Assembly: GCA_001599355.1 (NCBI GenBank)
Contig: BCGQ01000007.1
Coordinates: 128,620-192,619 of the forward strand
Origin: Nakazawaea peltata
Lineage: Eukaryota > Ascomycota > Pichiomycetes > Alaninales > Pachysolenaceae
DNA: 64,000 nucleotides
Reading direction: 5' to 3'
Shown: piece after piece, positions 6,975 through 61,856 of the stretch
How positions within the stretch are numbered: the first letter of the stretch is position 1
How the letters are laid out: the number at the start of each line of letters is the position of its first letter
Notes under the pieces: model-generated
Databases searched by the model: none
Seen by the model: only the letters and a program-made list of their open reading frames with translations
Told to the model about the DNA's origin: nothing
Program-made: the position numbers and the translations under genes

Positions 6975-9131
6975 CTAAATATATGGAATCGAATATGACA
7001 TGTAACTAATAACATCAGAATTATCTTGATCACTCAGGATCCAAAGGTCAATATTCCGAAGCAGAAGCTCAAGATTAGGGAAATATCTGTTATTACCATT
7101 TGTCGTCTCGACATAATCCAAGATTCCACTTCTTTGTAACATCAAAGTGATATTCTTTTGTTCTGGGGTGGAATTCAGAGTCACAAATAACGTCTTAATC
7201 AGACGGTGGTGGTATCCTTCTATAATTTCTAGTAAGATTTGCAGACCAGAACTGTCCATCTCTCTCATTCCATCCACATCAAAAACCACATACTTGATAT
7301 AGGATTTGAATCTTGGGGTCAGTGGATGGAAATCTGTACTGCCGTACATTTCGAGTCTCTTTAACTTCAATTTCAAATTATTACAGTTAGTGAAGGTTAA
7401 TGGCTCAGAGATACGAACTACGAGTGAATTATGGTCGAATTCAGTATCTTCGGAATGAGTTGAAGTCTCAACAAACTGTAAAGTATCAGCTCCTTGTTTT
7501 CTCCTCAAGATTTGAATTCGAGATTGAGAAGAGTTCTTTAGTAATCGGATAAGGCTATAAGCTGTGCCCATAATAATTCCCATATCCATGCTGATGAAGA
7601 AGGCAGAACTGAAAGTAACAAAGAAGGTAATTAATTCCTGCACACCTCTAGTACGAAGATAGAAAATAACATCCGAAGGAATCTCTTCCAAGATAGTGAG
7701 ACCTATGACAGTGGTGATACATCCAAGACAACAACTTGGTAAGAAGTACAAGAATCCAAGCACCCAGTTGATCAGTACGATCGTCACCAATGACATAAAG
7801 GCCCCACTGGCACAAGTTATTCCTCCACTAAGTCTGTTGATTTTGGATCTACCGTAACCACCGAACAGAGGTAAGGCTCCAAATGTTCCACACAGAATGT
7901 TAACTACACCCAACAGGACCAATTCACGATTAGAACTAATCGGAGACTCGTTGATCAACAGTTTTGTCAGAGTGGTCGACTCAAAGAATCCCAAAATGGC
8001 ACAAGTAATACCTGCACTCATTAAAGGTTTATAGAATCTTAACAAGTTTGATTTAAAAGCAAATTTACAAAAGAACTCATTCGACGCAGATATCTCTCCA
8101 GTGATGGCAATGCCGTAATTTGACTCCCAATCGTAGTACCATGAAAGATATGTCGACAGGAGGACGGTGATCAAGATTTCTGGCAAGAATATCAACTTCT
8201 TGTATCCCTTCTTCTTAATTAAGAACAGTTTGATCAGTCTTATTGAGATCAATACTGTCAACATACATAGACTCAGTAGCAGAGTAAACTTGTGAGTGTC
8301 TTGAATATGATTAATGACGTATATCAACTTGGAGAATGGGGAATGGATACCACTTTCTTGAGACAGGACATGTAATCCCAACTCTTCAAGACTGGAATTA
8401 ACCACCATTACCAAACCTACAGCAGCGATAAACCCTTTTAACAACAGGGTCGATAATAAGCTGTCCAAAAATCCGAATCTCAGAAGTCCGGATCCTAACA
8501 ATGTGAAGCCTGAAATGACGGAAATTACGAGTACCAAGTCCAATACGTTCTCAATTGTCTTGTCATGGTGAAGCATAGGTTCAATTACACCACCCACCAC
8601 GATCGAAATAGAAGGTTCCGGACCCACGATCAACTGTGGAACTGACCCAAAGAACATATACAGAACAGGCAGAGTCAGCACACTTGCTAAGCCAGAAATT
8701 GGCGGAACATGCAGAATTGTCTTCAGATAAGACATCAGCAAAGGTATTTGGAAACTCAGAAGTGATAATCCAGAGACAAAATCATGCATCAGTGTCGACC
8801 ATGTGTATTTGGGGAGCCATTTCAAGCAAGGCAAATAATAGTACAATTTATGCTCCAAACTGGCCTCGATAGACGGGTCATTCGAAGACACTGACGACGC
8901 CGGCTGGGTCATTTTGATAGAATTTATAAGCGGAGTTGTCTCTCTAACAGATCCAGCATCAAAATATCCTCCATTTCCACCCGCCAAAGCAACTCCAGAT
9001 GGTGACCCAGGTCCTGGTGGAGGAGTGAAAGGTCTCTGAGTGCTCCCATACTGTTGTGGATGTAAAGGGTCACGGAGCAAACTGCTCGACGTTCTGTTCT
9101 GGAGAACTGGTCTCTTGGAAGGCTGTACCAT
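6975..9131 (-). CDS. SulP-family anion transporter with STAS domain (YPR003C-type)
   Basis: Encodes 718 residues. SulP proteins are membrane anion carriers with a C-terminal cytosolic STAS domain. About 100 residues of disordered N-terminus precede the transmembrane core (about 105-540), which carries SFQIPL, VPQLIVGPEPSIS, GFFESTT, SSNREL and FGGYGRSKIN, all shared with yeast YPR003C rather than the plasma-membrane sulfate permeases Sul1 and Sul2. The STAS domain is at about 575-690 (VVFDVDGMREMDSSGLQ). CTG codons at residues 125, 132, 140, 388 and 391 sit where YPR003C has Ala or small residues, supporting CTG as Ala. Its substrate is unknown; YPR003C has been reported at the ER. It is separated from TAF3, on the same strand, by about 217 bp. 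Confidence 0.85.
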   Translation of the reverse strand: MVQPSKRPVLQNRTSSSLLRDPLHPQQYGSTQRPFTPPPGPGSPSGVALAGGNGGYFDAGSVRETTPLINSIKMTQPASSVSSNDPSIEASLEHKLYYYLPCLKWLPKYTWSTLMHDFVSGLSLLSFQIPLLMSYLKTILHVPPISGLASVLTLPVLYMFFGSVPQLIVGPEPSISIVVGGVIEPMLHHDKTIENVLDLVLVISVISGFTLLGSGLLRFGFLDSLLSTLLLKGFIAAVGLVMVVNSSLEELGLHVLSQESGIHSPFSKLIYVINHIQDTHKFTLLLSLCMLTVLISIRLIKLFLIKKKGYKKLIFLPEILITVLLSTYLSWYYDWESNYGIAITGEISASNEFFCKFAFKSNLLRFYKPLMSAGITCAILGFFESTTLTKLLINESPISSNRELVLLGVVNILCGTFGALPLFGGYGRSKINRLSGGITCASGAFMSLVTIVLINWVLGFLYFLPSCCLGCITTVIGLTILEEIPSDVIFYLRTRGVQELITFFVTFSSAFFISMDMGIIMGTAYSLIRLLKNSSQSRIQILRRKQGADTLQFVETSTHSEDTEFDHNSLVVRISEPLTFTNCNNLKLKLKRLEMYGSTDFHPLTPRFKSYIKYVVFDVDGMREMDSSGLQILLEIIEGYHHRLIKTLFVTLNSTPEQKNITLMLQRSGILDYVETTNGNNRYFPNLELLLRNIDLWILSDQDNSDVISYMSYSIPYI

Positions 9132-25725: not shown

Positions 25726-25830
25726 GGTTGTGTGGCCGAGTGGTCTAAGGCGCTCGACTCAAGCAGTTAATTTTCTGTTTCTGTGCGATCGAGTCTCGAA
25801 AGAGGCAGGAGTTCGAACCTCCTCGCAACC
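25726..25830 (+). tRNA. tRNA-Leu, anticodon CAA, with a 24-nt intron (25764-25787)
   Basis: The acceptor arms GGTTGTG and CGCAACC pair with one G-U. The D-arm is GCC/GGC, the anticodon stem CTCGA/TCGAG, the anticodon CAA at 25760-25762, followed by G37, an intron and the 3' half. A long variable arm (TCTCGAAAGAGGC) marks a class II tRNA, and the T-arm is AGGAG TTCGAAC CTCCT. It reads UUG leucine codons. Leu(CAA) also has an intron in S. cerevisiae. It is the only tRNA I find here; no Leu tRNA with anticodon CAG is present. T-rich sequence follows, acting as Pol III terminator (25834 onward). Confidence 0.95.
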
Positions 25831-25966
25831 AATATTTTTTTTCATTTTTTTTCAAAACTATTGGAATATTATACACGACCACCCCACATTGGATTCAAAA
25901 AAAAAGAGGAGAAGTTAACTTTGATGATCTTATAAAGGTTATAGACGTGGTATCGGAGGGTTAGCA

Positions 25967-26273: not shown

Positions 26274-26894
26274 TGGGTTATAGTGGGCTCGATAGAGTGA
26301 TATCTTTGTGCGCGCTGTCGCACAGTACTTATTTATTATGGTGGAAGGTTATTTTCACAAGATTTATTTATTGCAGTGAAGGCTGATTATTTATTATGGT
26401 GCGTAGTACTAATATTGATGGTTGCGTTATGTAACGATTATCTATAATAGTACGTAGCACTTATATTTATTAATTTATTATTGAACTAATCTACTGTAGC
26501 GTATTTGTAGAGTGAGACAGTGATGACGTTCTGTTGATATTTCTGTATTTCTGTTCTGATGTGTTTAGTTAGTGGATGTCACTTCTTCCCTCCATTCCTT
26601 TCTCTCTATTCTTTTCCCTCCACTCTTCGCTCCGCCCATTCTTTTCCTTCCTCCTTCCTCCTTCCTCCTTCCTCCCTCCTTTTCCCTTCCTCCTTCCTCC
26701 TTCCTCCCTCCTTTTCCCTTCCTCCTTCCTCCTTCCTCCCTCCTTTTCCCTTCCCCCTCCATTCTTTCCCTCCCTTTCCCTCCCTTTTCCCTCGTCCCTG
26801 CCCTCCTTTCCTTCGCTCACCTGACACGAAATCAAAATCGATAAAAAAACCTTCTCAATTAACAACAAGTATCAAGATTGGAAGGAACGATAAA
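26274..26894 (+). repeat. Intergenic with long polypyrimidine repeat (about 26582-26816)
   Basis: Nearly pure C/T on the plus strand for about 230 nt. It is made of TTCCTCC units nested in a larger repeat of about 30 nt (CTCCCTCCTTTTCCC spacer, three copies). It lies directly before the IES1 start and may lie in its promoter or leader. Frames through it encode only Pro/Ser/Leu or Arg/Glu/Gly repeats. Confidence 0.75.
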
Positions 26895-28925
26895 ATGTAC
26901 GATCCTGTTCACGACACGACGGACCAGAATAACTCTGATGAAGTGGGTGCTGGTAAGACTGTGGAAGCGATTTCTGGGAACGGAACGGGCGCCGATGGCG
27001 CTACTGTTGGTGCTACCGCAGCTACTGATGGCGTTGGCGCTACCGCTACCACTGTTACTGACGGCGCTACCACCTCTCATCCAATCCCTGTCAAATCTCC
27101 TAACGATCACAAAGTATCGATCAACTCCCTCTTAAGTGATGAGCCTGAACCCTCTCATTACGATTATGACCATCATGATCTGACACCTTCAAAGCGTGTC
27201 TTATTGGCTAATAAACGGAAGAAGAAGGAAGACAGTTCGTCATTGAGCGGTACGCCTTCCTCGGGAAAATCGACTCTGGGCTGGCCCCCTTCATTATTGA
27301 CGCCTCTGCATTCATCCAAATCCAGACACTTGAAGAAACCCGACAGTGAGCCTCTTTTGAGAGCCGATATTCAATACGATTTCCTCGAATTGTTGTTGTT
27401 GAACGATGTCAAGTTCTTGACTAACCCATTTGCTGAGATCAAGGATGATATTAAGTACTGGGATAAGATCAGTGGTGGAGAGTCCAGATCCCCTGATAAG
27501 TTGACGTTCTTCCAATTATATTTGATCACAATTTTACAAAGTAATCGTATCTCGAAAATTTTGAAGGACCGGTTGTTGGACGATTTGAATTATCTGTTCA
27601 AATTCATTGTCTTGTGTTTGTTGGTCAACTTCGGTAGATTGAATACCACCATTAACTTTGACTATGAGATGAGATCTCAATTGAGAACTTATCATTGTAT
27701 TCCACTGTTGCAACTGAACCATGAATTGTTTGGGATTCTGCAAGAACCTGCTAATATTGTCGAGAACAATGGAGGAGGTAGTGGATATACACTGAACAGT
27801 GTCAAGCAATTGCAAGATACTCCTAGATTGAAGACTATTTTGAAGAGTGTGGCTGATTTCAATAACAAATTGGGCAGTTCCAGACCTGATATTTTCTTGA
27901 GCACTTGTGCCGAACAAAATGTGTTACCAGAGAGGGACAATTTGAAGAACAGATTCAATTTGGTTAGTTTGATCTTCCATTTGGCGTCGTATGAGGCTAA
28001 GATTGTAGAGACCTTTGTTAAGGAACGTACTTTTGAATCGAGATCCACAGTTTTGAATGAGATCTTCTTGTTGAATAGTGGGAACCCGGTATTGAAAGTT
28101 AAGAGATTCCTTTGGTTAATGTATGTGTTGCATGAGACTGATTTGACCGATGAAGGAAACATGGAGAATCCATTTGGAGATATTGAAAGAGATGAAAATG
28201 GTAAAGAGGTGAATTTGATTCCTGAATTAATTGCTGAATCTGATGAATTGTACAATCAAGACACAGAAGTGGAATTGGAGTTCCTGAACAAGATGAAGTT
28301 AAAGAGAAAGAATTTCTTGGCCATTGTAGAGAATTTGGCCACTAAGGAAGATGGTGATCGTAGCGTGGTATTTGATTCTGACACATCGATGGTGGCACAT
28401 GGAAGTCCTGAGACTCCAATTGTGAAATTGAAGTTGAATAAGAAGGGACGTAAGAGACGGATCATCGATGGAGACGGTACTGTGATTGTTAGTGGAGACG
28501 TGAGTCAGTTAGCACAAGAAGATGGTGATGAGAAGCCTAAGAAATTAAGAAAGAAACCGGGACCAGTTCCTAAAGCTTTGAGGTTAGCTCAGGAGGAATC
28601 TCTGAAGAAGAAGAGTGTGGTGGTGAAGGGGAAGAAGATGAAGAAGGCAATGAAAGTGAAATTACCACTGAAGGAACTGGCCAAACAAAAAGTATTGGAG
28701 AAGTTTATAGAAGAGTATATTTTGTTACAGATGGAATCGAAGAGACGTGAACGGAAACAAATTGGGACTCTGGGCTTCTTGAAGGATCTTAGTATTGCGG
28801 AGATTGAGCAGCTTGATATTCCTGTTGAATTGGATTATAATGAGTTGAAGATTGGATATATGGAGGCACTTTATCATATGAGTCCAGGAATACCACGGAA
28901 GACTGAACTTAGTGATCTTTTTTAG
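26895..28925 (+). CDS. IES1: INO80 chromatin-remodelling complex subunit Ies1
   Basis: Encodes 676 residues. Ies1 is a fungal subunit of the INO80 remodeller. The marker block runs from HLKKPDSEPLLRADIQYDFL (about 140-160) through FTNPF-like LTNPFAEIKDD, LTFFQLYL, KDRLLDD, LLVNFGRLNTTINFDYEMR, SQLRTYHCIPLLQ and KQLQDTPRLKTILKS, each resembling S. cerevisiae Ies1. The N-terminal 110 residues are Gly/Ala/Thr-rich. The C-terminus has a basic Lys-rich segment (KKLRKKPGPVPKALR) with an AT-hook-like PGPVPK. The start ATG at 26895 (MYDPVHD) follows the polypyrimidine tract. Confidence 0.8.
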   Translation: MYDPVHDTTDQNNSDEVGAGKTVEAISGNGTGADGATVGATAATDGVGATATTVTDGATTSHPIPVKSPNDHKVSINSLLSDEPEPSHYDYDHHDLTPSKRVLLANKRKKKEDSSSLSGTPSSGKSTLGWPPSLLTPLHSSKSRHLKKPDSEPLLRADIQYDFLELLLLNDVKFLTNPFAEIKDDIKYWDKISGGESRSPDKLTFFQLYLITILQSNRISKILKDRLLDDLNYLFKFIVLCLLVNFGRLNTTINFDYEMRSQLRTYHCIPLLQLNHELFGILQEPANIVENNGGGSGYTLNSVKQLQDTPRLKTILKSVADFNNKLGSSRPDIFLSTCAEQNVLPERDNLKNRFNLVSLIFHLASYEAKIVETFVKERTFESRSTVLNEIFLLNSGNPVLKVKRFLWLMYVLHETDLTDEGNMENPFGDIERDENGKEVNLIPELIAESDELYNQDTEVELEFLNKMKLKRKNFLAIVENLATKEDGDRSVVFDSDTSMVAHGSPETPIVKLKLNKKGRKRRIIDGDGTVIVSGDVSQLAQEDGDEKPKKLRKKPGPVPKALRLAQEESLKKKSVVVKGKKMKKAMKVKLPLKELAKQKVLEKFIEEYILLQMESKRRERKQIGTLGFLKDLSIAEIEQLDIPVELDYNELKIGYMEALYHMSPGIPRKTELSDLF

Positions 28926-32648: not shown

Positions 32649-35270
32649 ATGCAGACATCATTGAGAAGGATCATTGGATCCACAGGACGGTCCAATGTCA
32701 TTTATGGCATTCAAAGGCAGTCATTTAGAGTCCATCGCAATGTATACTTACCTGTTGGTAAGAGATGGAGTTCTACTGTGAAGGAGAGTGGAACCACTCC
32801 AGAAGAGAAGGTTGAAGTGGGTGCAGGTGAGGCTGTTGACCTGGCCGCTGAACTGGCCGCGGACCTGGCTGCTAAACTGGCAACCAGCCTGACGGTAAAG
32901 GCTGCCGAAGAAGATCTCACCGACGCCGCCTTGAAATCAGGTAATGAGATGGGTGAAGACGACGATACCGAAAATACAGGTGTGATCAAGAAAGAGAAAC
33001 AAGAATCATTGTTCTATTTCGATCACCTTTTCCCACCAACTCAAAGTCTGTTTGATTTCAAACGTTTCTTAAGCTACTTCTTTACCCCATCGACCGAGGA
33101 AAAGATCTGGGAATGTGTACTGGAATTGGTCAAAGATGAGAAGCAACATATCTCATTTAATATCACCTCAGTACAACCAATGGTAAGAGATGGAGGAGCA
33201 TTTGTCAAATTCCAGATCCCTTGGCATGTTCCTATCCAAGACTTCAATAAAAGACTTATTCTGAATGTGAACCAACACCAAGCTTCGGGATTTTTCAACG
33301 TGTTGTTTAAACCTCGTTGTTTCCCAGTCAAGGGTAAGCCATGGATCGAGGACTTGAGAAGATACCCTTCTAGAAAAGTCAAAGTAGAGTTCCAAGGTCC
33401 AGATTTGACCCAGGAAGAAATCTACCTGGTATTCCGTAGATACGGTGTGATCAATGACATTCAACTGCCGAAAGACAAAACTCTGACCATCACTTTCCGT
33501 CTCACCAGAGGTGCCATTACACTGAAGAACTGTGTCAATGGGTATCGGTTGAATGACACCAAAGTTCATGTCCAATGTATCCCTCTCGACACTCGTAATG
33601 TAGTGATGGACTTCATCATCAACCACCAACGTATTTCGGTCCCATTGATCATTGCCTTGGTAGCTCTGTTACTGTTCTTGATTTTCGAGCCGGTCAGAGA
33701 GTGGTTTATCATGGAGAAGATCACCCAACGGTACTCTCTTCGTAACAACCTGATTTTCCGTCAGATCATGGCCTTAAGTGACTCTACCTCCAGTAAATTC
33801 AGATCCATGATCAGTCTTGGTGATGACTCGTCTGTCTCTGGACTCAGTGACGTCAAGTCTCTTTGGCTCGAAAGATACGAAAAGGTGAAGGAATTGAAGT
33901 TATGGCTCGAAGAGAACGTCAATACCTTCATTGTCGTCAGAGGGCCTCGTGGGTCTGGAAAGCACGATATGGTGATCGACCATGCTTTGAAAGGTCGTCC
34001 AAACGTGTTAGTGTTGGACTGTGATGCCATGATCAAACTGCGTAATGAGCAGAAATTGTTGTCGAATTTCCTGCAACAGTTGGGTTACTTCCCAATCTTC
34101 CCATGGTTGAACTCGTTCATGAACTTTATCGACTTGGGTTTGCAAGGCTTGATCGGACAAAAGTCGGGAATCAGCGAGAGCAAAGAGCAGCAAGTCAAGT
34201 CCATGTTGAACACTCTGTTGCTGAGTATTCGTGACTTGAGTTTGGAGAATTACGACAGCTATGTCAAGCTGCTTGTGAAGGCCAAACTGCTGGAAGGAGC
34301 CGACGTCAACGTCGATGATGTTCAGCTCAAAGAAGAGGACTATTTGCAACAGCACCCTGAACTGAAGCCCGTCATTGTTATCGACAGATTCCAACCTTCC
34401 AGAAAGCAGCACGAACGTAACGCTTTCATCTATGAAGAGATTGCTGAATGGGCTCTGAATCTCGTGTCTCTGAATGTGGCCCATGTGATCTTCATCACGG
34501 ACGATATCGGGTCTCAGATCCAATTGACCAAGCTGCTTCCTGACCAGGTGTTCAAGACCACCACACTCTCAGATCTGTCCCTGGACAGTGCTCGTAGCTA
34601 TGTACTGAGTCAGTTGCTGGAGACTTATGCCAACCATGAAAAGTTGAGTGATATCATCAAACCTCTTGGTGGACGTATGCTTGACTTACAACTGTTTGTT
34701 CGTCGTATTAAGAGTGGAGAGAGTCCGGAGGAGCTGATCGAGGAGATGGTGGTCCAGACTGCCGAACAATTGACCCAGATGTACTTCTCTCATTCTTCCA
34801 GCAATGACAAGTACACTTCAGCTCATGTTTGGACTTTGATTAAGAAGCTTCTGGACCATGAAGAGGTGAGTTTCAAGGAGATCTCGTTAGTTCCGATCTT
34901 CAAGTCTAATCCTGTCGAGATATTGACCCTGTTGGAGAGCTCTGAGTTGATCACTTTGATCAAAGACCGTGGTTTGATCACTGCTGTCAGACCTGGTAAA
35001 CCATTGTACAAATCGAGTTTCGAGAACTTGGTCCATAACTCGAAACTGTTCAACAGTTTGGAGATCAAGTACCAATTGGAATTGGTACTGTTTGAGAACA
35101 AGAGGATTCTGAAATGGGTCGAGGAGATCAATAAGTTTGGAGAGTTCGGTGATTTGAGTGGGAATAAGATGTTTAAACCTCGGTTGGAGTACCTTGCTGA
35201 TAAGATCAAGGGAAGTACCGAGGCAATTGTGGCATCTGAGGCTACTGTTAAGCAGCTTGGTAAGGCATAA
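32649..35270 (+). CDS. YME2: Mitochondrial inner-membrane protein Yme2 (Rna12)
   Basis: Encodes 873 residues. Yme2 sits in the mitochondrial inner membrane and affects mtDNA maintenance and escape. The N-terminus is a presequence (MQTSLRRIIGSTGRSN). An Ala-rich helix (residues 63-85) follows when CTG is Ala. An RRM-like fold occupies about 180-320, with KVEFQGPDLTQEEIYLVFRRYG. One membrane span (about 330-350) is followed by a P-loop NTPase domain with Walker A GPRGSGKH at about 432-439 and VIVIDRFQ as Walker B-like. The C-terminal half is helical. Order and length match S. cerevisiae Yme2 (850). It is convergent with the asparaginase gene. Confidence 0.88.
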   Translation: MQTSLRRIIGSTGRSNVIYGIQRQSFRVHRNVYLPVGKRWSSTVKESGTTPEEKVEVGAGEAVDLAAELAADLAAKLATSLTVKAAEEDLTDAALKSGNEMGEDDDTENTGVIKKEKQESLFYFDHLFPPTQSLFDFKRFLSYFFTPSTEEKIWECVLELVKDEKQHISFNITSVQPMVRDGGAFVKFQIPWHVPIQDFNKRLILNVNQHQASGFFNVLFKPRCFPVKGKPWIEDLRRYPSRKVKVEFQGPDLTQEEIYLVFRRYGVINDIQLPKDKTLTITFRLTRGAITLKNCVNGYRLNDTKVHVQCIPLDTRNVVMDFIINHQRISVPLIIALVALLLFLIFEPVREWFIMEKITQRYSLRNNLIFRQIMALSDSTSSKFRSMISLGDDSSVSGLSDVKSLWLERYEKVKELKLWLEENVNTFIVVRGPRGSGKHDMVIDHALKGRPNVLVLDCDAMIKLRNEQKLLSNFLQQLGYFPIFPWLNSFMNFIDLGLQGLIGQKSGISESKEQQVKSMLNTLLLSIRDLSLENYDSYVKLLVKAKLLEGADVNVDDVQLKEEDYLQQHPELKPVIVIDRFQPSRKQHERNAFIYEEIAEWALNLVSLNVAHVIFITDDIGSQIQLTKLLPDQVFKTTTLSDLSLDSARSYVLSQLLETYANHEKLSDIIKPLGGRMLDLQLFVRRIKSGESPEELIEEMVVQTAEQLTQMYFSHSSSNDKYTSAHVWTLIKKLLDHEEVSFKEISLVPIFKSNPVEILTLLESSELITLIKDRGLITAVRPGKPLYKSSFENLVHNSKLFNSLEIKYQLELVLFENKRILKWVEEINKFGEFGDLSGNKMFKPRLEYLADKIKGSTEAIVASEATVKQLGKA

Positions 35271-38737: not shown

Positions 38738-40798
38738 ATGCGTAACCTCAGACACTTCTCGAGCTCAAGAAGCAGTCAAGTTGCTCAAAACTTGACCGAG
38801 AAAATCATCCAGAAATATGCCGTCGGATTACCAGCCGGAAAGAAGGTAGTCAGCGGAGACTATGTGTCAATTAGACCGGCTCATGTCATGTCTCACGACA
38901 ACTCGTGGCCTGTGGCTACCAAATTCATGAAATTGGGTCTGTCAAAAGTCAAGGACAACCGTCAGATCGTCAACACCTTGGATCACGATGTCCAGAACAA
39001 GAGTGAACTGAATTTGAAAAAATACCGTAATATCCAGAAATTCGCCAAGGAACAAGGCATCGACTTCTACCCAGCCGGTCGTGGTATCGGTCACCAAATT
39101 ATGATCGAAGAAGGATATCTGTTCCCATTGAACTTGACTGTGCTGTCAGACTCTCACTCTAACACATATGGTGGTATTGGAGCTTTGGGAACCCCAATTG
39201 TCAGAACTGATCTGGCTCTGATCTGGGCCACCGGTCAAACTTGGTGGCAGATTCCTCCAGTTCTGAAGGTGGAATTGATGGGAAAATTACCAAAGGGCGT
39301 CACCGGTAAGGATGTCATCGTATCATTGTGTGGTATTTTCAACAATGACGAAGTGTTGAACCATGCTATTGAGTTTGTCGGAGATGAGATCGACCAACTT
39401 CCAGTCGACTACAGATTGACTATTGCCAATATGACCACCGAGTGGGGAGCTCTTTCCGGGTTATTCCCAGTCGACAGTGCTATCATCGAATGGTACGAAG
39501 AAAGATTGAAGAGAGTCGGCCCAGACCACCCAAGAATCAACACCAAGACCATCCAACTGTTGATCGACAACCCAGAGAGAGCCGACCCAGATGCATACTA
39601 CCTGAAGACTTTGAAGGTGGACTTGAGTTCTCTTTCTCCTCATATCTCTGGTCCTAACTCTGTCAAGATTTCTAACCCTCTTTCTGTTTTGTCCAAACGT
39701 AATATGAAGATCAACAAGCTGTACTTGGTCTCTTGTACCAACTCGAGATTGAGTGACATCAAGCTGGCTGCCGACATCGTTGGTGACAACAAGATTGCTC
39801 CAGGTGTCGAGTTCTACATTCTGGCTCTGTCCAACTTGGTTCAAAAGGATGCCGAGAGTATCGGAGCCTGGCAAAAGCTTATCAATGCCGGTTGCACTCC
39901 ATTACCAGCCGGTTGTGGTCCATGTATCGGTTTAGGAGCCGGTTTGTTGGAGCCTGGAGAAATCGGAATCAGTGCTACTAACAGAAACTTCAAGGGTAGA
40001 ATGGGTAGTAAAGATGCATTGCTGTTCTTACTGTCTCCTGAGGTTGTTGCTGCCTCTGCTGTCATGGGTAAGATTGCTGGCCCAGAAGAAGTCTTGGGAC
40101 TCCCAGTTGAAGAAAGTAGAGAACTTGTTAAGGAAGTGATCATCCACGAGAAGGCCGCTTCCGATTCTCTGGATCTGGGAGGAGCCGTAGATGTTTTAGA
40201 AGGGTTCCCAGAGAGAATCTCCGGTGAATTAGTCTTATGTGATGCCGACAACATCAACACCGATGGTATCTACCCGGGTAAATACACGTACCAAGATGAT
40301 GTTCCTCGTGAGAAGATGGCCGAGGTCTGTATGGAGAACTACGATTCGGAGTTCGGTCTGAAGACTAAACTGGGAGATATCATCATCTCCGGTTACAATT
40401 TCGGAACTGGTTCTTCCAGAGAACAAGCTCTGACTCTGATCTTAGCTAGAGATATGAAGTTGGTAGTTGCTGGATCTTTCGGTAACATCTTCTCGAGAAA
40501 CTCGATCAACAATGCTCTTTTGACTTTGGAGATTCCAAAGTTGATCAACATGTTGAGAGAGAAGTACAAGGACTCTGAGAAGGAGTTGACTAGAAGAACA
40601 GGATGGTTCTTGACCTACGATGTCAGAAAGCTGACTGTTACTGTCACTGAGGGATCAGCTGACAGTGATAAGGTGGTGATGGTTGAGAAGGTTGGTGAAT
40701 TGGGAACTAATTTGCAAGACATCATCATTAAGGGGGGTTTAGAAGGTTGGGTCAAGGCCGAATTGGCCAGCGAGGGTGCTCAAGCTGCCACCGTTTAG
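38738..40798 (+). CDS. LYS4: Homoaconitase
   Basis: Encodes 686 residues. Mitochondrial homoaconitase converts homocitrate to homoisocitrate in fungal lysine synthesis. It carries a presequence ([17 protein letters not shown]), then the aconitase core with [33 protein letters not shown], the iron-sulfur cysteines Cys333 (VSCTNSR) and Cys393 and Cys396 (GCGPCIG), and the swivel domain with [10 protein letters not shown] and [11 protein letters not shown]. The ATG at 38738 is the first in frame. Its CTG codons (at residues 68, 128, 136, 159, 161, 176, 289, 328, 362, 364, 429, 432, 565, 567) align with Ala in S. cerevisiae Lys4, while TTG and TTA align with Leu. This is the strongest single-gene evidence for CTG as Ala. 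Confidence 0.96.
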
Positions 40799-52590: not shown

Positions 52591-54249
52591 ATGAGATTCG
52601 TCCCTCACAGAGACATCTCCTTCCAATATTCATTGGATAAAATCGACGACGGCTACGATTCCGCCTACGATTCCACCTCTTCAAGTGAAGATCTCGACGA
52701 TGAAGACATTTTACACGCTCTTGATGACCAATCTCTAGGCTTAACAAAGCTCCCAAATACCAGAGAATCATTGCATAATGTGCTAGAACGTCTCAATATC
52801 CAAGATAGATACGAGATAGTGACGGAATTGGCCGGGAAAGACCCAATCTCTCCCTTCACTTCAACCGCGGCATCGACAACGTCAAAATTCATCAAGCTGA
52901 TCGATGGATTGTCTCGTAGACAGATCGAAGAGTACCAAAAGAAACTGGAAAACCTGAAGTTACAACAACAGATGACCATGGAGAACTTGAAAGGAGCCTC
53001 AGAACGTGAAGAATCCTTGGTTTTAGGTAGAATGCTGTCTGATTTCGATCTGTTAGAAGCCAATGCTGAGAAATTGGTGGCTCAAATAAAAGCCGAGAAG
53101 GCCAGGAAAGCTCTGGAATTGAGACTGAAGCAAGAACAAGAGGCAAGAGAGAAGCTGGAAGAAGAGGCCAGACGTAAACTGGAGGAAGAAGCAAAGAAGA
53201 AACTGGCAGAGGAAGCCAAACGTAAACTGGAAGAAGAAGCTAAAAAGAAACTGGAAGAAGAAGCCAGACAAAAACTGGAAAAGCTGCGTAAAGAAGCCCA
53301 GGCTAAAGCTGAGAAAGAGGCCAAAGAGAAACTGGACCAGGAACTGTTACTGAAACAAAAAGCAGAACTGCAGTATTTGCATAATGATTTATTAATTCAA
53401 AAAGAGTTCCTCAAATATAAGCAAGATATTGCCGACATTAAGAAGAATGTCGTGGAACCTTTACTTCTGCAGAAGGAGTTGAAACAGCCTACCAATAAGG
53501 TAAGACGTCAAATCAACCCGAAATTCGGTCAATTGACCAGCTCTAAAGCCAAACTTTTCGAGATCAGTAACGAAATTCTCAATTTCCTCAACCAAGCCAA
53601 ACAATTCCATGAATTGAGTTATAAATATCTTTTAAATTTCGTGGCAAAGGAGCTTATTAAGCAGGCAGAGGTCGAGATCATCGTATCTCCCGACCATTCG
53701 GTCGCCTTAGCCGGGTTGCTGTCCAATTTACTCCAGCTGATCCCAGATTTGGAATATTATCTTCGAGCTCGGTTCTTCAAAAAATGTCCATATTTGCTCG
53801 GATTTAACTGTGATATAGACACCGAAGAGGGTCGGTATCGTATGGGATGGCGTAAATCCAACGGGAAATGGGAAGAAGAGAGCAAATATAACGAGAGAGT
53901 CGGTGGAATCCTGACGTTATATTGTGTGATGTGTCGGATCAATGTAGATGCCAATGTTAATAGCTGTGTGACTATGTCCAACTCCTGGTTATTTGTCTCA
54001 CGTATGCTCAACCTCGATACGACCAAACTTCAAGATATCCACTTCATTCTTATGGCCAATTGGTGGGAAGCTTGTTGTCAAGAATTTTTACAAACTTATA
54101 GAGAACAAGGGCGTAAATTGGTGATGTTATTAGCCAATGGATGGCTTCAAGAGACTAGAAAATTCAGTGGGTACGTTAGACTTAGGTTATTAGTTGAAGA
54201 TTGGCTCAATTCCGGTAAGATTCCATCGTTCAAACCACTTGATATGTAA
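52591..54249 (+). CDS. GLE1: mRNA export factor Gle1
   Basis: Encodes 552 residues (S. cerevisiae 538). Gle1 with inositol hexakisphosphate activates the Dbp5 helicase on the cytoplasmic face of the nuclear pore. The N-terminus is acidic. Residues about 165-270 form a charged helix, with six octad repeats K-A-E-E-E-A-K-K (CTG codons at residues 189, 197, 205, 213, 221 and 229 read Ala). The C-terminal HEAT-like Gle1 domain (about 300-545) contains ARFFKKCPYLLGF, RYRMGWRK, GGILTLYCVM and WWEACCQEFLQTYREQG. Six repeats with CTG as Ala make a charged single alpha helix; read as Leu they would fake a Leu repeat. Confidence 0.88.
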   Translation: MRFVPHRDISFQYSLDKIDDGYDSAYDSTSSSEDLDDEDILHALDDQSLGLTKLPNTRESLHNVLERLNIQDRYEIVTELAGKDPISPFTSTAASTTSKFIKLIDGLSRRQIEEYQKKLENLKLQQQMTMENLKGASEREESLVLGRMLSDFDLLEANAEKLVAQIKAEKARKALELRLKQEQEAREKLEEEARRKLEEEAKKKLAEEAKRKLEEEAKKKLEEEARQKLEKLRKEAQAKAEKEAKEKLDQELLLKQKAELQYLHNDLLIQKEFLKYKQDIADIKKNVVEPLLLQKELKQPTNKVRRQINPKFGQLTSSKAKLFEISNEILNFLNQAKQFHELSYKYLLNFVAKELIKQAEVEIIVSPDHSVALAGLLSNLLQLIPDLEYYLRARFFKKCPYLLGFNCDIDTEEGRYRMGWRKSNGKWEEESKYNERVGGILTLYCVMCRINVDANVNSCVTMSNSWLFVSRMLNLDTTKLQDIHFILMANWWEACCQEFLQTYREQGRKLVMLLANGWLQETRKFSGYVRLRLLVEDWLNSGKIPSFKPLDM

Positions 54250-55089: not shown

Positions 55090-57195
55090 ATGTTGAGAAG
55101 AGCTAAAAAGTACGGCGACGACGTCTTCAGGTCTCAGGATCTCGATTCCGATGACCCCGCCCTCAAAAAACACCGTTCCCCCCTAGATAGACTGCTAAAT
55201 AGCAAGATCTTTGTCTCAACCATGTACATCATCGCCTTCTTCATCGTGTTTGAGTACATAAGACTACGATCTGGTGGGTCCTATGACGATTACACCGCAT
55301 CAGGTGACCACTATGGATATGAAGAAACTTTCCAGGGCTCAGTAGGTGGTGCTCCTGCCCCCAATTCCCCAATATCTGCCCTCGAATCCAAGAATTTCCA
55401 AAGATTCATCTATAAACTGGACCTGATAATGCTCCCAGATGCCCCCTATAAACACGTCCTGCGACATTTAGACACCCGGGCATCTCATTTGATCTACCTT
55501 GATGCGATCCGGCAGAAAATCTTCGAGTCAAAGAAGAAATCCGCTAACACTCCGCCTGAATTTGACTTTTCTTGGACTGATTGGGTAGATTTAGTCGAAG
55601 ATTTGGAACCATTGTTGGTAGAAAAGCCCAATTGTTTCGTCGCAGGTGTATTAGGACAACATGTCAGAACTGAATGGAAAGGTTGTATCGATGTGGATCG
55701 TAAAAATCCTCGTCCGGATGGCCTTCAGTTCTATTTCAATTCCCCTGCTTTAGAACCCGAACCTGAATATCGGTTACTGTTAAGGCTGAAAACCTACCTT
55801 TATGTACTGCTGGAGATCCCTAAAAAGATGGTCTTCCTCGTAGGAGAGCTGCTGTTTGTGGTCCGTACCAAGAATCGCCGTTCAATTGTCGAAAGTGGCA
55901 TCGTCAATAACTTCATCGAGTCGAGAATTTCTCTGCTCAAATCTAAGAATGGAGATACCCCACTGAAATTGACCCCAGATGATATTCGCATGCAACCAAT
56001 CACTCCTAAAGGTATCTTGGAGGGTATATCCGACCTGCTTGGCCACGATATCACCGAGTTTGTCTCCCCTCCAGTCCAATATGCCGACTGTTCAGAACAA
56101 GATTTCGATACTTTGATTCGTAAGATTAAAAAAGTCAAGCTGGCCTCTAAAGCTGCTCGTGAAGGCTACTCACATTTCGCCTCAGCTTACGTGAAAGATA
56201 CTACAGTATCAGGAGATCACTCTTATGTCTCCCCATACGATTGGAGATTCTTCAAAACGACTCTCTCCTCAACTCATCACAGAGCTGCTTTACATCGTGT
56301 CGTTCGTGCCTGGTTGACTCTCACCAATAATTTAGGAATGGTATCTTGGTTAGACGAAGATTACCTGGTAGGCTGGCTGTACAACGGTATGCTGCTGCCT
56401 TGGGATCAGATCTTACGGTTCAAAATGTCCTCGAAACATTTCCAAAAATTGACCACCTACAATTATTCAGTAGTTTTAGATGATCCAAATGATGGACATG
56501 GAGCTTATTTACTTGACATCTCGCCCTTCTTCATGGAAAGGGCACGTACCAATGATCCTTCCAAGTCTCCAGATGCCACCGATGCTCGTTTCATCGACAT
56601 AGAAACCGGTGTCTACCTTGAAGTAAATGGTCTTATGTTAGGAGAATCTACCTTGATGGTGCCTAAAGAATTACTTGAAGAATTCCCTAATGCCAAACGT
56701 GAGGATTTCTTCAACTCCGGAGACGGCAAGTTCTATCACAAAAGTGACTTGTTGCCGATCAAACGTACTTTATTCGAAGGGAAAGTAGCCAACGTCCCTG
56801 GAAACATGTTAAAATTAGTAGCTCATCGTAATAATGACGCCATGAACAACGGAGAGTTCGGTATGTACAAGTACCAGGACCATTTGAGGTTATGGATCTC
56901 CAAAGATAAGTGTAATTATGTGCCGCAAGAGGACATTTCACTCTTCAAATCTGGAGGATCTTCATTCATCGGCCTGTGTCATGATATCGCCATTTGGGAC
57001 GAGTATAACCGGACTAGTCTGATGACACGATACCGTCAAACAGAGAAGCTGGCTCCTGCTCAGCTATACATTGGCGTCCAGGACCAACTCCCACCTGTAT
57101 TTGAGGACTTTTGGTTGAAGGATCGTGTAGAAATGTTGAATAAAAAGTACGGAATAGCCATTGAGGACAAGCAAATCGATAAAGAGAATGTATAG
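55090..57195 (+). CDS. MNN4/LicD-family glycan phosphate-transfer protein (metal site absent)
   Basis: Encodes 701 residues, a type II membrane protein (basic N-terminus, one span at about 42-60). It resembles yeast Mnn4, needed for mannosylphosphate on N-glycans in the Golgi, and LicD-type proteins. Matches: NLGMVSWLD, VGW-x-YNG, PWD, DISPFFMER, DARFIDIETGVYLEVNG and YGIAIEDK-like end. The metal-binding acidic motif after PWD (in Mnn4 PWD-x-DLDVQM) is replaced here by PWDQILRFKM. The reading is confirmed in the DNA (about 56398-56427). So this protein looks catalytically altered, possibly regulatory. It ends 35 bp from the convergent ABC transporter stop. Confidence 0.75.
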   Translation: MLRRAKKYGDDVFRSQDLDSDDPALKKHRSPLDRLLNSKIFVSTMYIIAFFIVFEYIRLRSGGSYDDYTASGDHYGYEETFQGSVGGAPAPNSPISALESKNFQRFIYKLDLIMLPDAPYKHVLRHLDTRASHLIYLDAIRQKIFESKKKSANTPPEFDFSWTDWVDLVEDLEPLLVEKPNCFVAGVLGQHVRTEWKGCIDVDRKNPRPDGLQFYFNSPALEPEPEYRLLLRLKTYLYVLLEIPKKMVFLVGELLFVVRTKNRRSIVESGIVNNFIESRISLLKSKNGDTPLKLTPDDIRMQPITPKGILEGISDLLGHDITEFVSPPVQYADCSEQDFDTLIRKIKKVKLASKAAREGYSHFASAYVKDTTVSGDHSYVSPYDWRFFKTTLSSTHHRAALHRVVRAWLTLTNNLGMVSWLDEDYLVGWLYNGMLLPWDQILRFKMSSKHFQKLTTYNYSVVLDDPNDGHGAYLLDISPFFMERARTNDPSKSPDATDARFIDIETGVYLEVNGLMLGESTLMVPKELLEEFPNAKREDFFNSGDGKFYHKSDLLPIKRTLFEGKVANVPGNMLKLVAHRNNDAMNNGEFGMYKYQDHLRLWISKDKCNYVPQEDISLFKSGGSSFIGLCHDIAIWDEYNRTSLMTRYRQTEKLAPAQLYIGVQDQLPPVFEDFWLKDRVEMLNKKYGIAIEDKQIDKENV

Positions 57196-57230: not shown

Positions 57231-60200
57231 TTATTTAGAGTTAGCTCTCTCTACTAACGAGCTTAAAGAACCACTATTCAGACACATCCGGGCGAATATC
57301 GACTCTTTATTGGCAAGTAAATTACCCGGAGTATCAAGTTCGGCAATCTTACCTTTGTCGAGAACCAAGACTCGGTCATAATCGATAATAGAGTTGAGTC
57401 GATGAGCTATAGTGATGACGGTACTGTTCTTAAAGCTCGAAGCGAGAGTTTCTTGGATCATATAGTCGGTCGAATGGTCTATAGAAGAAGTAGCTTCGTC
57501 AAGAAGCAAAATTTTGGGGGTTCGAAGAAGAGCTCGAGCTAAACAGAGAAGCTGTTTTTGACCTTGAGATAAATTGGATCCATTTTCCAGGACTGGAGTG
57601 TAAATGAGATCATTAGAAATGGGTTCCAATGACTCACTTGTCTCCATTTGGGTTACCTGTACATTACTCTGTAATTTTACATCTTCGACAGAACTATTTC
57701 TACGTAACATATTCAAAAGTCCTACTCTCAGAACAGCCTTTGTCACCAGAGAATCCGAATACTCTTCAAATGGATCCAAATTAGATCTTACGGTTCCTCT
57801 AAATACTGCTGGATCTTGAGGAATTATCGAAAGTGCCCTTCGAAGTTTTTTCAACCCTAACCCCCCAATATCAATTCCATCAATATACAATTTCCCACCT
57901 TCATCTGCTTCTAAGAAACGGAAACAAGCTGATATGATGGTCGATTTCCCGGCTCCAGTTCTTCCTACAACAGCCAATCTCTCACCTGGCAGTATTGAGA
58001 ACGAGACATTCTTGATCACTGCTGGTAAAGAAGGAGAATATCTAAGAGACAAATTATTCACTTCAATTGCTCCATGCTGTGGCCATTTAGGATCCACCAT
58101 GGCATCTGAATCAAGTTCATATGCTGCCTCCTGTTCAAGCTCCAGATATTCCTGTAATCTCTCTACAGAATTCATAGACATTTCTACCGAAACATACGAC
58201 CGGATAAGCCAAACAACATAAGCGTTGAAGGTCATCGCATAGGTCAAAGAAAGACCAGCAAGACCGGCATCTATGGAGTCTACATTTAATAGGATAAACA
58301 GTCCTGCAAGAAGCAAAATGCTTGCCCCCACCAGATCCGTCCTCACAGAAAGCCATCGATTGGTGATCCAAAGATAATAATACAGTTTGTTATTTTGGTC
58401 AAGCTTAAGAAGACATTGCTGTAAATATCTGAGCTCATCTCCAAAGGCCCTTATGGTGATAAGACCATTGATAGTCTCTTGGAACTGCTGATATATAGGA
58501 GACCTGGTAGTGGAATCAAGTCTTTTCAACTCCCTTGACAGAGAAAGGTAAAGCTGAGCCAAATAATAGTAAGCCAGTAGAATAAATATTACGAAAGGTG
58601 TGAACATGGGGGTTACAAAACAGATCATAAGGATTGTGGAACAACAATGAATAAAATACATCACCGTAGTTTCACCGTATCTGATCAATTCTTGGTCAAT
58701 TGACTGCGTATCTTTTGCAAATCTGTTCATGATTCTTCCTTTGGGGGTTACATCGAAGAAACGGGACTTGGATCTGAGGACCTTGGTCAATACTAAGTCA
58801 AACAATTTACTTGAAGCTCCAAGCCCTTTGAGAGAGATGAAGTAAACTCTGAGAGTGGCTATTGAAGCGTATAATACTCCGATAATAAGATAAATAGACA
58901 CGAAATAAAGAGAATTATTCGCACTCATAATAAAATTCGAGACAGGAACAGTCTTATTATCATACTCGGTCCATCTACGTAACCAAAAGGTCTGTGAGAT
59001 GAAGACTATTTGAGTCAGAGCATAAAATATAGCAATACTCAACCAAGTCCATTTTTTACCAACCATTTCAGCATAACTACTATATGTGGAGAATGAAATA
59101 GCCCCCTCCAGCTTATATTCGACGGCAGTAAGTTGTACAGGGGCTACAACATCGCCAACAGACAGTTGTTCCACCCTTTCTCCATCTTCCAGATCCTTCT
59201 CATCAACTTCGAAAGAAGTCTCATCTAGTTTTCCCAGCAGTACAAGCTCAGAAACTGTTCCAACACCCCCAATTTTTCCTGAATCTAAAACCACAACCCA
59301 GTCCAGCTTTGTCATGGTCAAAGATACGTTATGACTAACCAATATACATGTCCTGCCGTCCATTAATGGACCAGTCAAACAGTTCTCATAGATCCAGAGC
59401 GAAGTATGAGAGTCAACAGCACTAAGGCAGTCATCAAGAACAACATATAGGGCATTTGAATAAATGGCCCTAGCAAGACACAACCTTTGACGTTGACCTC
59501 CGGATAATATCACACCACTCTCACCTATATGGGTGTCATCAGATAAAGTCTTGAGATCCTGAGAGAGTCCACATCCATGCAAAACTGCCTCATATCGTTG
59601 AGAGTCATACGGAGAATTATATAAAATGTTATTTTTGATAGAATCATTGATGAGCCATGAAGCTTGTGAACAGTACAGAACCTGTGGGTTTAACAGACGG
59701 ATATCTGGAACTTGTTCACGTGGATAATACCCTGGCAACATGATAGAGCCACTTACCAAGGGCATCTCCCCCAAAAGCAGCATCAATAGAGATGATTTAC
59801 CAGAACCTGTAGGACCTATGATGACATTGAGTTTACCGATCTCAAAATCTATATCTATATCTCTCAATTCGAAAGAATCGGCATCATGAGGATCCCATTT
59901 GAATGACAGTTTAGAAAACCCAATTCTATTCTGATCTTCTCTATTCTGTTCATCCAATCTCTCATATTTACTAGTGTCTTCCGTTTTAAGGAAATTTACA
60001 ACTCTTTCAAGAGATATAAAACTTTGATAGATATCACTGGACCATGAAGCAAGATCTATCAATGGTTGTCTCAACAAATTAAATAAGGTCAATGAAGTGA
60101 ACAGCAACGAGGTTGTTAAGGTTCTCCCCTCGATCATTGTGAAGCAAAAGAAAGCTCCAAATGTGACTAAAGTGGGGGTAATGGCACTGATTAGATTCTG

Positions 60201-61856
60201 TAATGACCAGAACAAAGCTTTAGTTTTATAATTACGTATTTCTAAGTCTCTAGTAGCCATGACATCGCTATAAAAGTAATCCTCCCAGGCGAAGTTCTTG
60301 ATAATTCTAATGTTCTTCAATATTTCATCTAGTTGCGAAATACGGGTGTCTGTCTGATGTAAGATCCTCTTTTGGTACATTCCAATCCTAGAAGCACATC
60401 TATAATTGAGTGGGATCAATACTATAATCACCATCAGACCCACAAGAGCACTCCATCCAAGATTTTTGTAGAGTAAACAGGCCAGAAAGCATACCATGAT
60501 GAAAGATGTAGGTAAGGTACTGACATAACCAACACTGAGACCAATACTGTAAGCATCAGAAGACATCAAATTGATTACATGGCCGGAAGATTTCAAATTG
60601 GTACTGTTAATAGAAAGAATCTTACTGTAGATCTCATTAATGAGAATACTACGTAGCCTGAGATCCATCCGTTTCCCCAAATACAATGTGAATGCACTCA
60701 AAATGGACTCTGCTATCTTCATGAAGAACATAAGAATCAACATGTACCATGCTCCAACCAGTGAATGAGTGGAAGGTTCAGCAACATACTCAAGAAACTG
60801 CTTCAAGAATATACTAGGGACGAACACCAATACAGAACAGATGATTCCACAAACGATTTGGTAGAAGAACAACTTATAGAATGATCTGAAGACAACTCTG
60901 AGGAGTTGTGAAGCACTAGAGATCGGATTCAAGTCTCCTTGTGTCATCTTCAGTACATCTTTCTTGAAATTAAGAACCAGAATCGTCGAGTAATCGTTAT
61001 TCACAAGTCCCCAAAGGTCTAACTCCTGTAAAGGTCTCTGTTTCAGCGACCTGAACAATTCATTAGTCCACGAGAAGGTTAATGTGGAGAATATACTACT
61101 GATCGGCTCAAGACATGGTCTAGAATCAATATTGAGAAGCGTCCTCTTGGCCTCATTCTGAAACCTCATAAGGTATACACAGGCCAAAACTAGGGTCTCC
61201 AAACAGATAGAAATCCAAATATATAAAGGTTCCTGACCTTCTGGCAGATTGAGATCTACGTATAATTTTAGTAAAGTTGGAAATAACTGTAAATGATAGA
61301 GAATAACGGAGTGTTTGAATAGAAGACTGGTTGTTGAGCCAGAGACGAGAGTGTGAGTGAATATTAATCGTAGCACAGCTAAAAAGGCAAGGTATATACA
61401 GAAGATAAGTGGACACCAGCTTGAAATCGGGTCTAATGAATATTCGCCACATGTAATCAGATATCCATAAACTCCCAATTGAATGAATAATATCAATATT
61501 TCAGCCACGATCAACACCCTGTCCCATACTAATACAGGCTCTGTAGTATAACTAGCTCTTTTATTAAAGGCTTCAGTTATCTTGGTGAAATTGAATCGGA
61601 GCAGCTTTGAATGAAATGAGTGCCCATTTTCTGGACCCTGGATCTCATTTGTACCCCCAATTCCCGGCCTCTTCCTCCCGACAACATAAACCACCCACCA
61701 CCAGCACATCCAACAAATAGAACACACCAATAACAGGCCAAAATACACCTTCTCACCCTGGTCATTTCCATTCTTCCAACCTTTTTCAGTCACTCCTTCC
61801 AGCTCCAAACTCATCACCCACAACATAATTCCATCATGTATCATCCAATCCCTCAT
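57231..61856 (-). CDS. ABCC-subfamily ABC transporter (Ybt1/Vmr1/Nft1-type)
   Basis: Encodes 1541 residues, a full-length MRP-type exporter. An N-terminal membrane domain (TMD0) precedes two TMD-NBD halves. NBD1: Walker A GPTGSGKS, signature LSGGQRQR, Walker B YVVLDDCLSAVD (Asp instead of the catalytic Glu, normal for ABCC NBD1). NBD2: Walker A GRTGAGKST, signature LSQGQKQ, Walker B KILLLDEATSS, H-loop AHR. Between the halves there is an acidic linker. Fungal relatives Ybt1, Vmr1, Nft1 and Ycf1 export bile acids, metals or glutathione conjugates into the vacuole. Which one this is cannot be told. The start at 61856 (MRDWMIHDG) is a candidate; in-frame Met residues follow closely. Confidence 0.88.
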   Translation of the reverse strand: MRDWMIHDGIMLWVMSLELEGVTEKGWKNGNDQGEKVYFGLLLVCSICWMCWWWVVYVVGRKRPGIGGTNEIQGPENGHSFHSKLLRFNFTKITEAFNKRASYTTEPVLVWDRVLIVAEILILFIQLGVYGYLITCGEYSLDPISSWCPLIFCIYLAFLAVLRLIFTHTLVSGSTTSLLFKHSVILYHLQLFPTLLKLYVDLNLPEGQEPLYIWISICLETLVLACVYLMRFQNEAKRTLLNIDSRPCLEPISSIFSTLTFSWTNELFRSLKQRPLQELDLWGLVNNDYSTILVLNFKKDVLKMTQGDLNPISSASQLLRVVFRSFYKLFFYQIVCGIICSVLVFVPSIFLKQFLEYVAEPSTHSLVGAWYMLILMFFMKIAESILSAFTLYLGKRMDLRLRSILINEIYSKILSINSTNLKSSGHVINLMSSDAYSIGLSVGYVSTLPTSFIMVCFLACLLYKNLGWSALVGLMVIIVLIPLNYRCASRIGMYQKRILHQTDTRISQLDEILKNIRIIKNFAWEDYFYSDVMATRDLEIRNYKTKALFWSLQNLISAITPTLVTFGAFFCFTMIEGRTLTTSLLFTSLTLFNLLRQPLIDLASWSSDIYQSFISLERVVNFLKTEDTSKYERLDEQNREDQNRIGFSKLSFKWDPHDADSFELRDIDIDFEIGKLNVIIGPTGSGKSSLLMLLLGEMPLVSGSIMLPGYYPREQVPDIRLLNPQVLYCSQASWLINDSIKNNILYNSPYDSQRYEAVLHGCGLSQDLKTLSDDTHIGESGVILSGGQRQRLCLARAIYSNALYVVLDDCLSAVDSHTSLWIYENCLTGPLMDGRTCILVSHNVSLTMTKLDWVVVLDSGKIGGVGTVSELVLLGKLDETSFEVDEKDLEDGERVEQLSVGDVVAPVQLTAVEYKLEGAISFSTYSSYAEMVGKKWTWLSIAIFYALTQIVFISQTFWLRRWTEYDNKTVPVSNFIMSANNSLYFVSIYLIIGVLYASIATLRVYFISLKGLGASSKLFDLVLTKVLRSKSRFFDVTPKGRIMNRFAKDTQSIDQELIRYGETTVMYFIHCCSTILMICFVTPMFTPFVIFILLAYYYLAQLYLSLSRELKRLDSTTRSPIYQQFQETINGLITIRAFGDELRYLQQCLLKLDQNNKLYYYLWITNRWLSVRTDLVGASILLLAGLFILLNVDSIDAGLAGLSLTYAMTFNAYVVWLIRSYVSVEMSMNSVERLQEYLELEQEAAYELDSDAMVDPKWPQHGAIEVNNLSLRYSPSLPAVIKNVSFSILPGERLAVVGRTGAGKSTIISACFRFLEADEGGKLYIDGIDIGGLGLKKLRRALSIIPQDPAVFRGTVRSNLDPFEEYSDSLVTKAVLRVGLLNMLRRNSSVEDVKLQSNVQVTQMETSESLEPISNDLIYTPVLENGSNLSQGQKQLLCLARALLRTPKILLLDEATSSIDHSTDYMIQETLASSFKNSTVITIAHRLNSIIDYDRVLVLDKGKIAELDTPGNLLANKESIFARMCLNSGSLSSLVERANSK

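Follow-up and report, generated by a model that had tools for sequence, protein, structure and literature searches.

Alanine decoding of CTG in a 64-kb window of yeast DNA, and the place of CTG among its alanine codons

Which amino acid does CTG specify in this stretch of DNA, and how is the codon used there? The question was raised by LYS4, the homoaconitase gene, in which many CTG codons had been predicted to fall where Lys4 of S. cerevisiae has alanine, as in a yeast using NCBI translation table 26. Yeasts of the genera Pachysolen, Nakazawaea and Peterozyma are known to read CUG as Ala in this way and, according to the consulted part of PMC5951914, their tRNA-Ala(CAG) arose from a tRNA-Ala gene. 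The reassignment itself is already known; what is added here is how CTG is used across the window, that is, the whole 64-kb stretch that was analysed.

CTG columns in LYS4

The gene that raised the question is located as follows.

38738..40798, + strand: LYS4 (homoaconitase), 686 aa, open throughout; Pfam Aconitase and Aconitase_C; 22 CTG codons

All 14 residues named in the original prediction (68, 128, 136, 159, 161, 176, 289, 328, 362, 364, 429, 432, 565 and 567) were indeed encoded by CTG, and the remaining eight CTG codons lie at residues 91, 274, 343, 478, 480, 541, 545 and 632. In place of the S. cerevisiae Lys4 on which that prediction was based, we took as a reference set 71 homoaconitase-like loci, obtained when bacterial and archaeal genomes were scanned for relatives of the LYS4 protein as translated with table 26. 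The loci were bacterial by title and showed 43–63% identity in aligned columns. Their longest open frames, 11 of the 71 being shorter than 600 aa, were aligned with CTG masked as X. Bacterial single-chain homoaconitase-like proteins of this kind (L001-L071; Marinimicrobia, Planctomycetota, Chloroflexi and others) reach up to 56% identity with the yeast protein over most of its length, and they bear on the origin of fungal LYS4.

Twenty of the 22 CTG columns could be aligned, residues 478 and 480 having no aligned residue. The commonest residue was Ala in 13 columns, Glu in four, and Gly, Arg and Ser in one each; Leu was the commonest in none. Near-invariant alanine (98–100%) was found at residues 159 (71/71), 328 (66/66), 362 (65/65), 364 (64/64) and 565 (59/60). 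The placement of the 14 listed codons on alanine thus stood for 13 of them, as judged from the 71 bacterial loci, and fell for residue 136, where Gly led (Gly 41, Ala 30 of 71). A further CTG expected opposite serine was found at residue 632, with Ser in 40 of 58 loci. Glu was commonest at residues 91, 343, 541 and 545, and Arg at residue 274.

Every LYS4 codon was scored against weighted columns holding at least 40 residues. Over its 20 columns, CTG reached +42.2 bits as Ala, −29.8 bits as Ser and −63.4 bits as Leu. This alanine signal is far beyond chance. In the same gene, the standard residue was best for 47 of the 51 other codons scored, the exceptions being ATT and TCA, which were near-ties with Val and Thr, respectively, ACA, which rests on two columns, and TGC, which rests on one. 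The claim that no CTG in LYS4 falls on a conserved leucine was borne out as well: where Leu makes up 90% or more of a column, which is so in 17 columns, the yeast has TTG (7), TTA (4), CTT (3) and non-Leu codons (3), and in no case CTG. The 24 columns with at least 90% Ala carried GCT (9), GCC (4), GCA (2), CTG (5) and other codons (4).

In LYS4, CTG is distributed across conserved and variable sites in much the same way as GCN, and the homologs show no excess of leucine at CTG. The mean Ala fraction of the homologs was 0.567 at the 20 CTG columns versus 0.582 at the 42 GCN columns (p=0.87), and the mean Leu fraction was 0.2% versus 0.65%. At the level of at least 80% Ala, we counted 5/20 CTG sites versus 19/42 GCN sites (p=0.17), so that a mild deficit of CTG at the most conserved LYS4 sites is possible.

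Domain and structure alignments of other genes

Evidence from other genes of the window came from Pfam matches and from alignments to proteins of known structure, in which the following genes figure.

6975..9131, − strand: sulfate permease (SLC26 type), 28 CTG; Pfam 235.4 (Ala), 223.2 (Ser), 212.7 (Leu) bits
29683..32145, + strand: VTC3-like vacuolar transporter chaperone, 15 CTG; Ala opposite 2/11 alignable CTG, Leu 0
32649..35270, + strand: YME2/RNA12-like, 37 CTG; RNA12 domain 507.3 (Ala), 495.6 (Ser), 473.6 (Leu) bits
35503..36594, − strand: asparaginase, 11 CTG; compared with 22 weakly similar bacterial matches, 26–41% identity
46545..49397, + strand: SEC26 (coatomer beta), 22 CTG; against 9qpq, Ala opposite 9/21 alignable CTG, Leu 0
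52591..54249, + strand: GLE1, 22 CTG; Lys/Glu/Ala coiled-coil tandem array inside
55090-57195, + strand: LicD-domain protein; clearest Leu-favouring Pfam case, 35.7 (Leu) vs 30.3 (Ala) bits, a weak match
57231..61856, − strand: ABCC-type transporter (MRP/YCF1 relatives), 34 CTG; Pfam readings not separated

For the Pfam comparison, 22 ORFs were scored with CTG as Ala, Leu or Ser, and the 30 main domain matches were summed. The sums were 4737.6 bits for Ala, 4630.0 for Ser and 4533.3 for Leu. Taken one by one, 25 matches were better with Ala than with Leu, two were ties and three were better with Leu (PCI, RRS1 and LicD). Against Ser, Ala was better in 23, with two ties, and Ser was better in five (AFT, PCI, Clat_adaptor_s, Ribosomal_L5_C and ABC_tran), by a margin of 0.1 to 1.4 bits. 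In the ABCC-type transporter, ABC_membrane scored the same with Ala and Leu, and ABC_tran was slightly best with Ser. Among weak matches kept outside the sum, NUFIP2 was better with Leu, FAR1 was slightly better with Ser, and SPX was reported only with Ser.

A tally of masked alignments to PDB entries covered SEC26, VTC3, GLE1 and the sulfate permease, with one chain each, the ABCC and sugar transporters being left out. Opposite the 61 CTG codons stood Ala 18, Val 7, Ser 5 and Leu 2 times, and opposite the 97 GCN codons Ala 32, Ser 18, Val 7 and Leu 3 times. Leu was opposite 165/314 other Leu codons, and Ser opposite 64/202 true Ser codons. CTG and GCN did not differ for Ala (p=0.73) or for Leu (p=1.0), and CTG differed from the other Leu codons with p=6e-15; CTG therefore acts like GCN and unlike the Leu codons. 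Both leucines of the tally come from the sulfate permease, aligned with the plant chain 7lhv. In GLE1, the tandem array (53134-53280, + strand) consists of units of about 24 bases of the kind K-x-E-E-E-A, and in most units x, the first alanine, is CTG, and the second alanine is GCN.

Two comparisons were less clear. Against prestin, the best hit of the sulfate permease, 22 CTG codons faced Leu 4, Ala 4 and Val 4 times. Asparaginase was aligned with weakly similar bacterial matches, in which Ala led at CTG residues 166 (16/22) and 336 (3/3), and one of the 11 CTG codons, residue 266, lay in a Leu-rich column (9/12). Counted by cells of these same weakly similar matches, the 116 CTG cells held Ala 26 and Leu 11 times, and the 213 GCN cells held Ala 65 and Leu 14 times.

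Alanine as the meaning of CTG is thus supported by the LYS4 columns, by the summed Pfam scores of 22 ORFs and by the masked PDB alignments of four proteins. CTG on conserved Ala columns was found in LYS4, in the Pfam sums, and in SEC26 and the other PDB alignments; the picture was not clear in the asparaginase and prestin comparisons. The pattern named beforehand as speaking against alanine, CTG columns centring on Leu or Ser, was not seen in the window, though single columns do centre there.

Codon usage, tRNA gene and a possible history

The codon count took in the 28 ORFs that are 150 codons or longer, 15,146 codons in all, three overlapping opposite-strand ORFs being left out. Of 1104 Ala codons, 446 were CTG, 287 GCT, 218 GCC, 105 GCA and 48 GCG. 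CTG was the commonest Ala codon, at 29.4 per 1000 codons and with a share of 0.40 (95% interval 0.36–0.45, gene bootstrap), and it equalled or exceeded every GCN codon in 19/28 ORFs. Its share was 0.406 in the 22 ORFs with a Pfam match versus 0.398 in the six without. Since non-coding trinucleotides gave an expected share of 0.26, CTG is used above background, and GCA and GCG below it. The share differed between genes (p=0.003), the lowest being that of an L7Ae/NHP2-like gene (1/13). No link with a codon-bias proxy was seen over the 28 ORFs (rho −0.21, p=0.27); among single proxies, the AAG share and the GCT+GCC share reach p=0.06. A standard translation of the window would give the wrong residue at ~3% of codons, some of them at invariant sites, and annotation therefore needs table 26.

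In the same 28 ORFs, TTG was the main Leu codon (713/1463 non-CTG Leu codons), and CTA was nearly absent for Leu (34/1463, against a share of 0.17 expected from non-coding trinucleotides). TCG was fairly common for Ser (206/1381). The GC content of the window is 42.3%. Three further ORFs of the window deserve a mention.

3466-4245, − strand: Ras-family GTPase that ends in the CAAX-like CIVM; its P-loop is altered to GPPAVGKS, with the Ala encoded by CTG; the ORF has no ATG before the P-loop, so the first exon probably lies upstream
26559-28925, + strand: 788-aa ORF, no Pfam match; it begins in CCTTCC-rich tandem repeats, and its start, or the whole ORF, may be noncoding
62518-63999, + strand: Zn2Cys6-type transcription factor ORF, CITCRKKKKKCDEQRPVCGLC, assigned to the family by visual inspection; it runs past the window end

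A single tRNA gene was found in the window.

25726..25831, + strand: tRNA-Leu(CAA); Rfam tRNA 47.2 bits; long variable arm; 24-base intron after position 37

An intron after position 37 is usual in yeast nuclear tRNAs. With the intron so placed, the mature form has 82 bases, the anticodon is CAA and the discriminator is A. Because of this anticodon, the long variable arm and the discriminator A, we read the gene as tRNA-Leu(CAA). ARAGORN named the same interval (25726-25831) Val(CAC), a name that came from a different intron placement and was rejected; with bacterial settings, ARAGORN gave no tRNA in the window. The minimum-energy fold of the spliced tRNA kept the acceptor, variable and T arms and lacked the usual D and anticodon arms, and the reading therefore rests on sequence and on the Rfam match. 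Judged from its anticodon, this tRNA would serve TTG, the window's main Leu codon, rather than CTG, and it says nothing on how CTG is decoded. A tRNA-Leu(CAG) gene, which had been named beforehand as a sign against alanine, was not found in the 64-kb window with Rfam or ARAGORN.

How might CTG have come to lead the Ala codons? We favour, with moderate confidence, the view that adoption of the reassigned codon is complete in this lineage, CTG being the leading Ala codon, used above background, distributed over sites like an ordinary Ala codon and showing hardly any trace of its past as a leucine codon. The ancestral CTG-Leu codons would have been vacated, mostly to TTG and TTA, and over a long period CTG would then have been gained anew at Ala sites. 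CTG lies two substitutions from the nearest GCN codon, and gain at Ala sites would therefore have gone through double changes or through intermediates such as GTG (Val). For the path through valine (GCG-GTG-CTG), the PDB tally gave Val opposite 7/61 CTG versus 7/97 GCN codons, a difference that was not significant (p=0.40). Decoding would be by a tRNA-Ala with the anticodon CAG, known for the clade and assumed for the window; AlaRS permits such decoding, since it does not depend on the identity of the anticodon bases, as stated in the consulted part of PMC5951914.

That present CTG sites might be fossils of ancestral leucine was considered and rejected, Leu in homologs being 0.2% versus 0.65% for GCN in LYS4, and 2/61 versus 3/97 in the PDB tally. 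The test was less clean in prestin (4/22 CTG) and in asparaginase (11/116 CTG versus 14/213 GCN cells).

If full uptake of CTG is true, a reassigned sense codon need not stay rare and marginal. If it is general in Nakazawaea, the emptying and refilling phases of a code change would be separable and the refilling measurable. A CUG-Ala yeast whose top Ala codon is CTG illustrates the extent that a change of code can reach, and it offers a means of timing how a vacated codon is refilled through two-step paths.

Competing readings and known codes

The window is almost certainly nuclear DNA of a CUG-Ala yeast (NCBI table 26), most likely of the Pachysolenaceae (order Alaninales), with Nakazawaea as the leading guess. 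Four other readings were weighed.

The one that survives best, although we consider it improbable, is an ambiguous CTG, read for the most part as Ala and to a small extent as Leu or Ser, owing to competition between two tRNAs or to mischarging. Mixed decoding is known in principle in other CUG-reassigned yeasts, as the consulted text of PMC8629427 has it, and misreading at a level of a few per cent is invisible to homology. However, CTG occupies invariant Ala positions, at which a wrong residue would carry a cost, and the homologs had no more Leu at CTG than at GCN, either in LYS4 or in the PDB tally of four proteins; the asparaginase and prestin comparisons, which are weaker, show low Leu at CTG less cleanly.

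Much less likely is an independent CUG-to-Ala reassignment outside Alaninales. It would fit the high use of CTG here, which is unlike the account of Pachysolen in the part consulted of PMC12202755. Yet a single CUG-Ala clade was described among 52 yeast species (PMC5951914, in part), and the survey of 462 yeasts, in which the meaning of CUG agreed with the known clades in 453 and was undecided in nine, reports no CUG-Ala outside the clade in its consulted passages (PMC8629427). The GC content published for Nakazawaea ambrosiae, a clade member by genus, also equals that of the window.

A serine reading, as in Candida (table 12) or Saccharomycopsis, is very improbable indeed. It was the runner-up both for LYS4 and for the Pfam sums, which the similarity of Ser to Ala would lead one to expect, and it can point to residue 632 and to the five Pfam matches that were slightly better with Ser. 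It nonetheless lay 72 bits below Ala in LYS4 and 108 bits below over the 30 Pfam matches, five LYS4 CTG codons sit on columns with 98–100% Ala, and Ser was opposite 5/61 CTG codons versus 64/202 true Ser codons; CTG on conserved Ser columns, the feature of the table 12 code, was not what we found. The least probable reading keeps the standard meaning, leucine, for CTG and takes the LYS4 pattern for a one-gene accident. It can be regarded as refuted, with −63 bits in LYS4, no CTG among 17 conserved Leu columns and 204 bits below Ala over the 30 Pfam matches; in its favour stand the PCI, RRS1 and LicD matches and a few CTG codons opposite Leu in permease and asparaginase homologs.

With CTG read as alanine, its usage can be set beside published accounts, cited here from the parts of each source that were consulted. 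Reassigned CUG is described there as rare and as tending toward unconserved sites. Its frequency is 0.003–0.006 in the GAL genes of reassigned species (PMC8084343), and CUG occurs just a few hundred times in the protein set of P. tannophilus (PMC12202755). Highly conserved positions hold 17% of Ser-coding CUG versus 61.1% of Leu-coding CUG (PMC4986446); the same paper finds no CUG of P. tannophilus at 90% conserved Leu or Ser positions, and its discussion gives this yeast some CUG at conserved Ser positions. The CUG-Ala clade was omitted from PMC6701816 for lack of software. None of the passages searched names CTG as a major Ala codon of a yeast, although such a record may exist in the supplements or in the 2016 discovery papers, which lay outside that search. 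A leading and widely spread Ala codon CTG does not fit the general picture given in these passages.

Among known systems, the CUG-Ala code of Pachysolen tannophilus, Nakazawaea and Peterozyma (table 26) is alike in that CUG is read as Ala and the other codons appear standard. The strain Nakazawaea ambrosiae CCF 6643 has a GC content of 42.3% (PMC10106607, Table 2), equal to the 42.3% of the window, a likeness by GC alone and thus weak evidence. In contrast to P. tannophilus, with its few hundred CUG in the consulted part of PMC12202755, the window has CTG as its commonest Ala codon, at some invariant Ala sites as well. The CUG-Ser1 and CUG-Ser2 codes of Serinales and Ascoideales share with the window the reassignment of the same Leu codon, TTG as the main Leu codon and the rarity of CTA. 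However, these orders avoid CTG and read it as Ser, according to the consulted text of PMC11540330, whereas in the window CTG is abundant and its residue is Ala.
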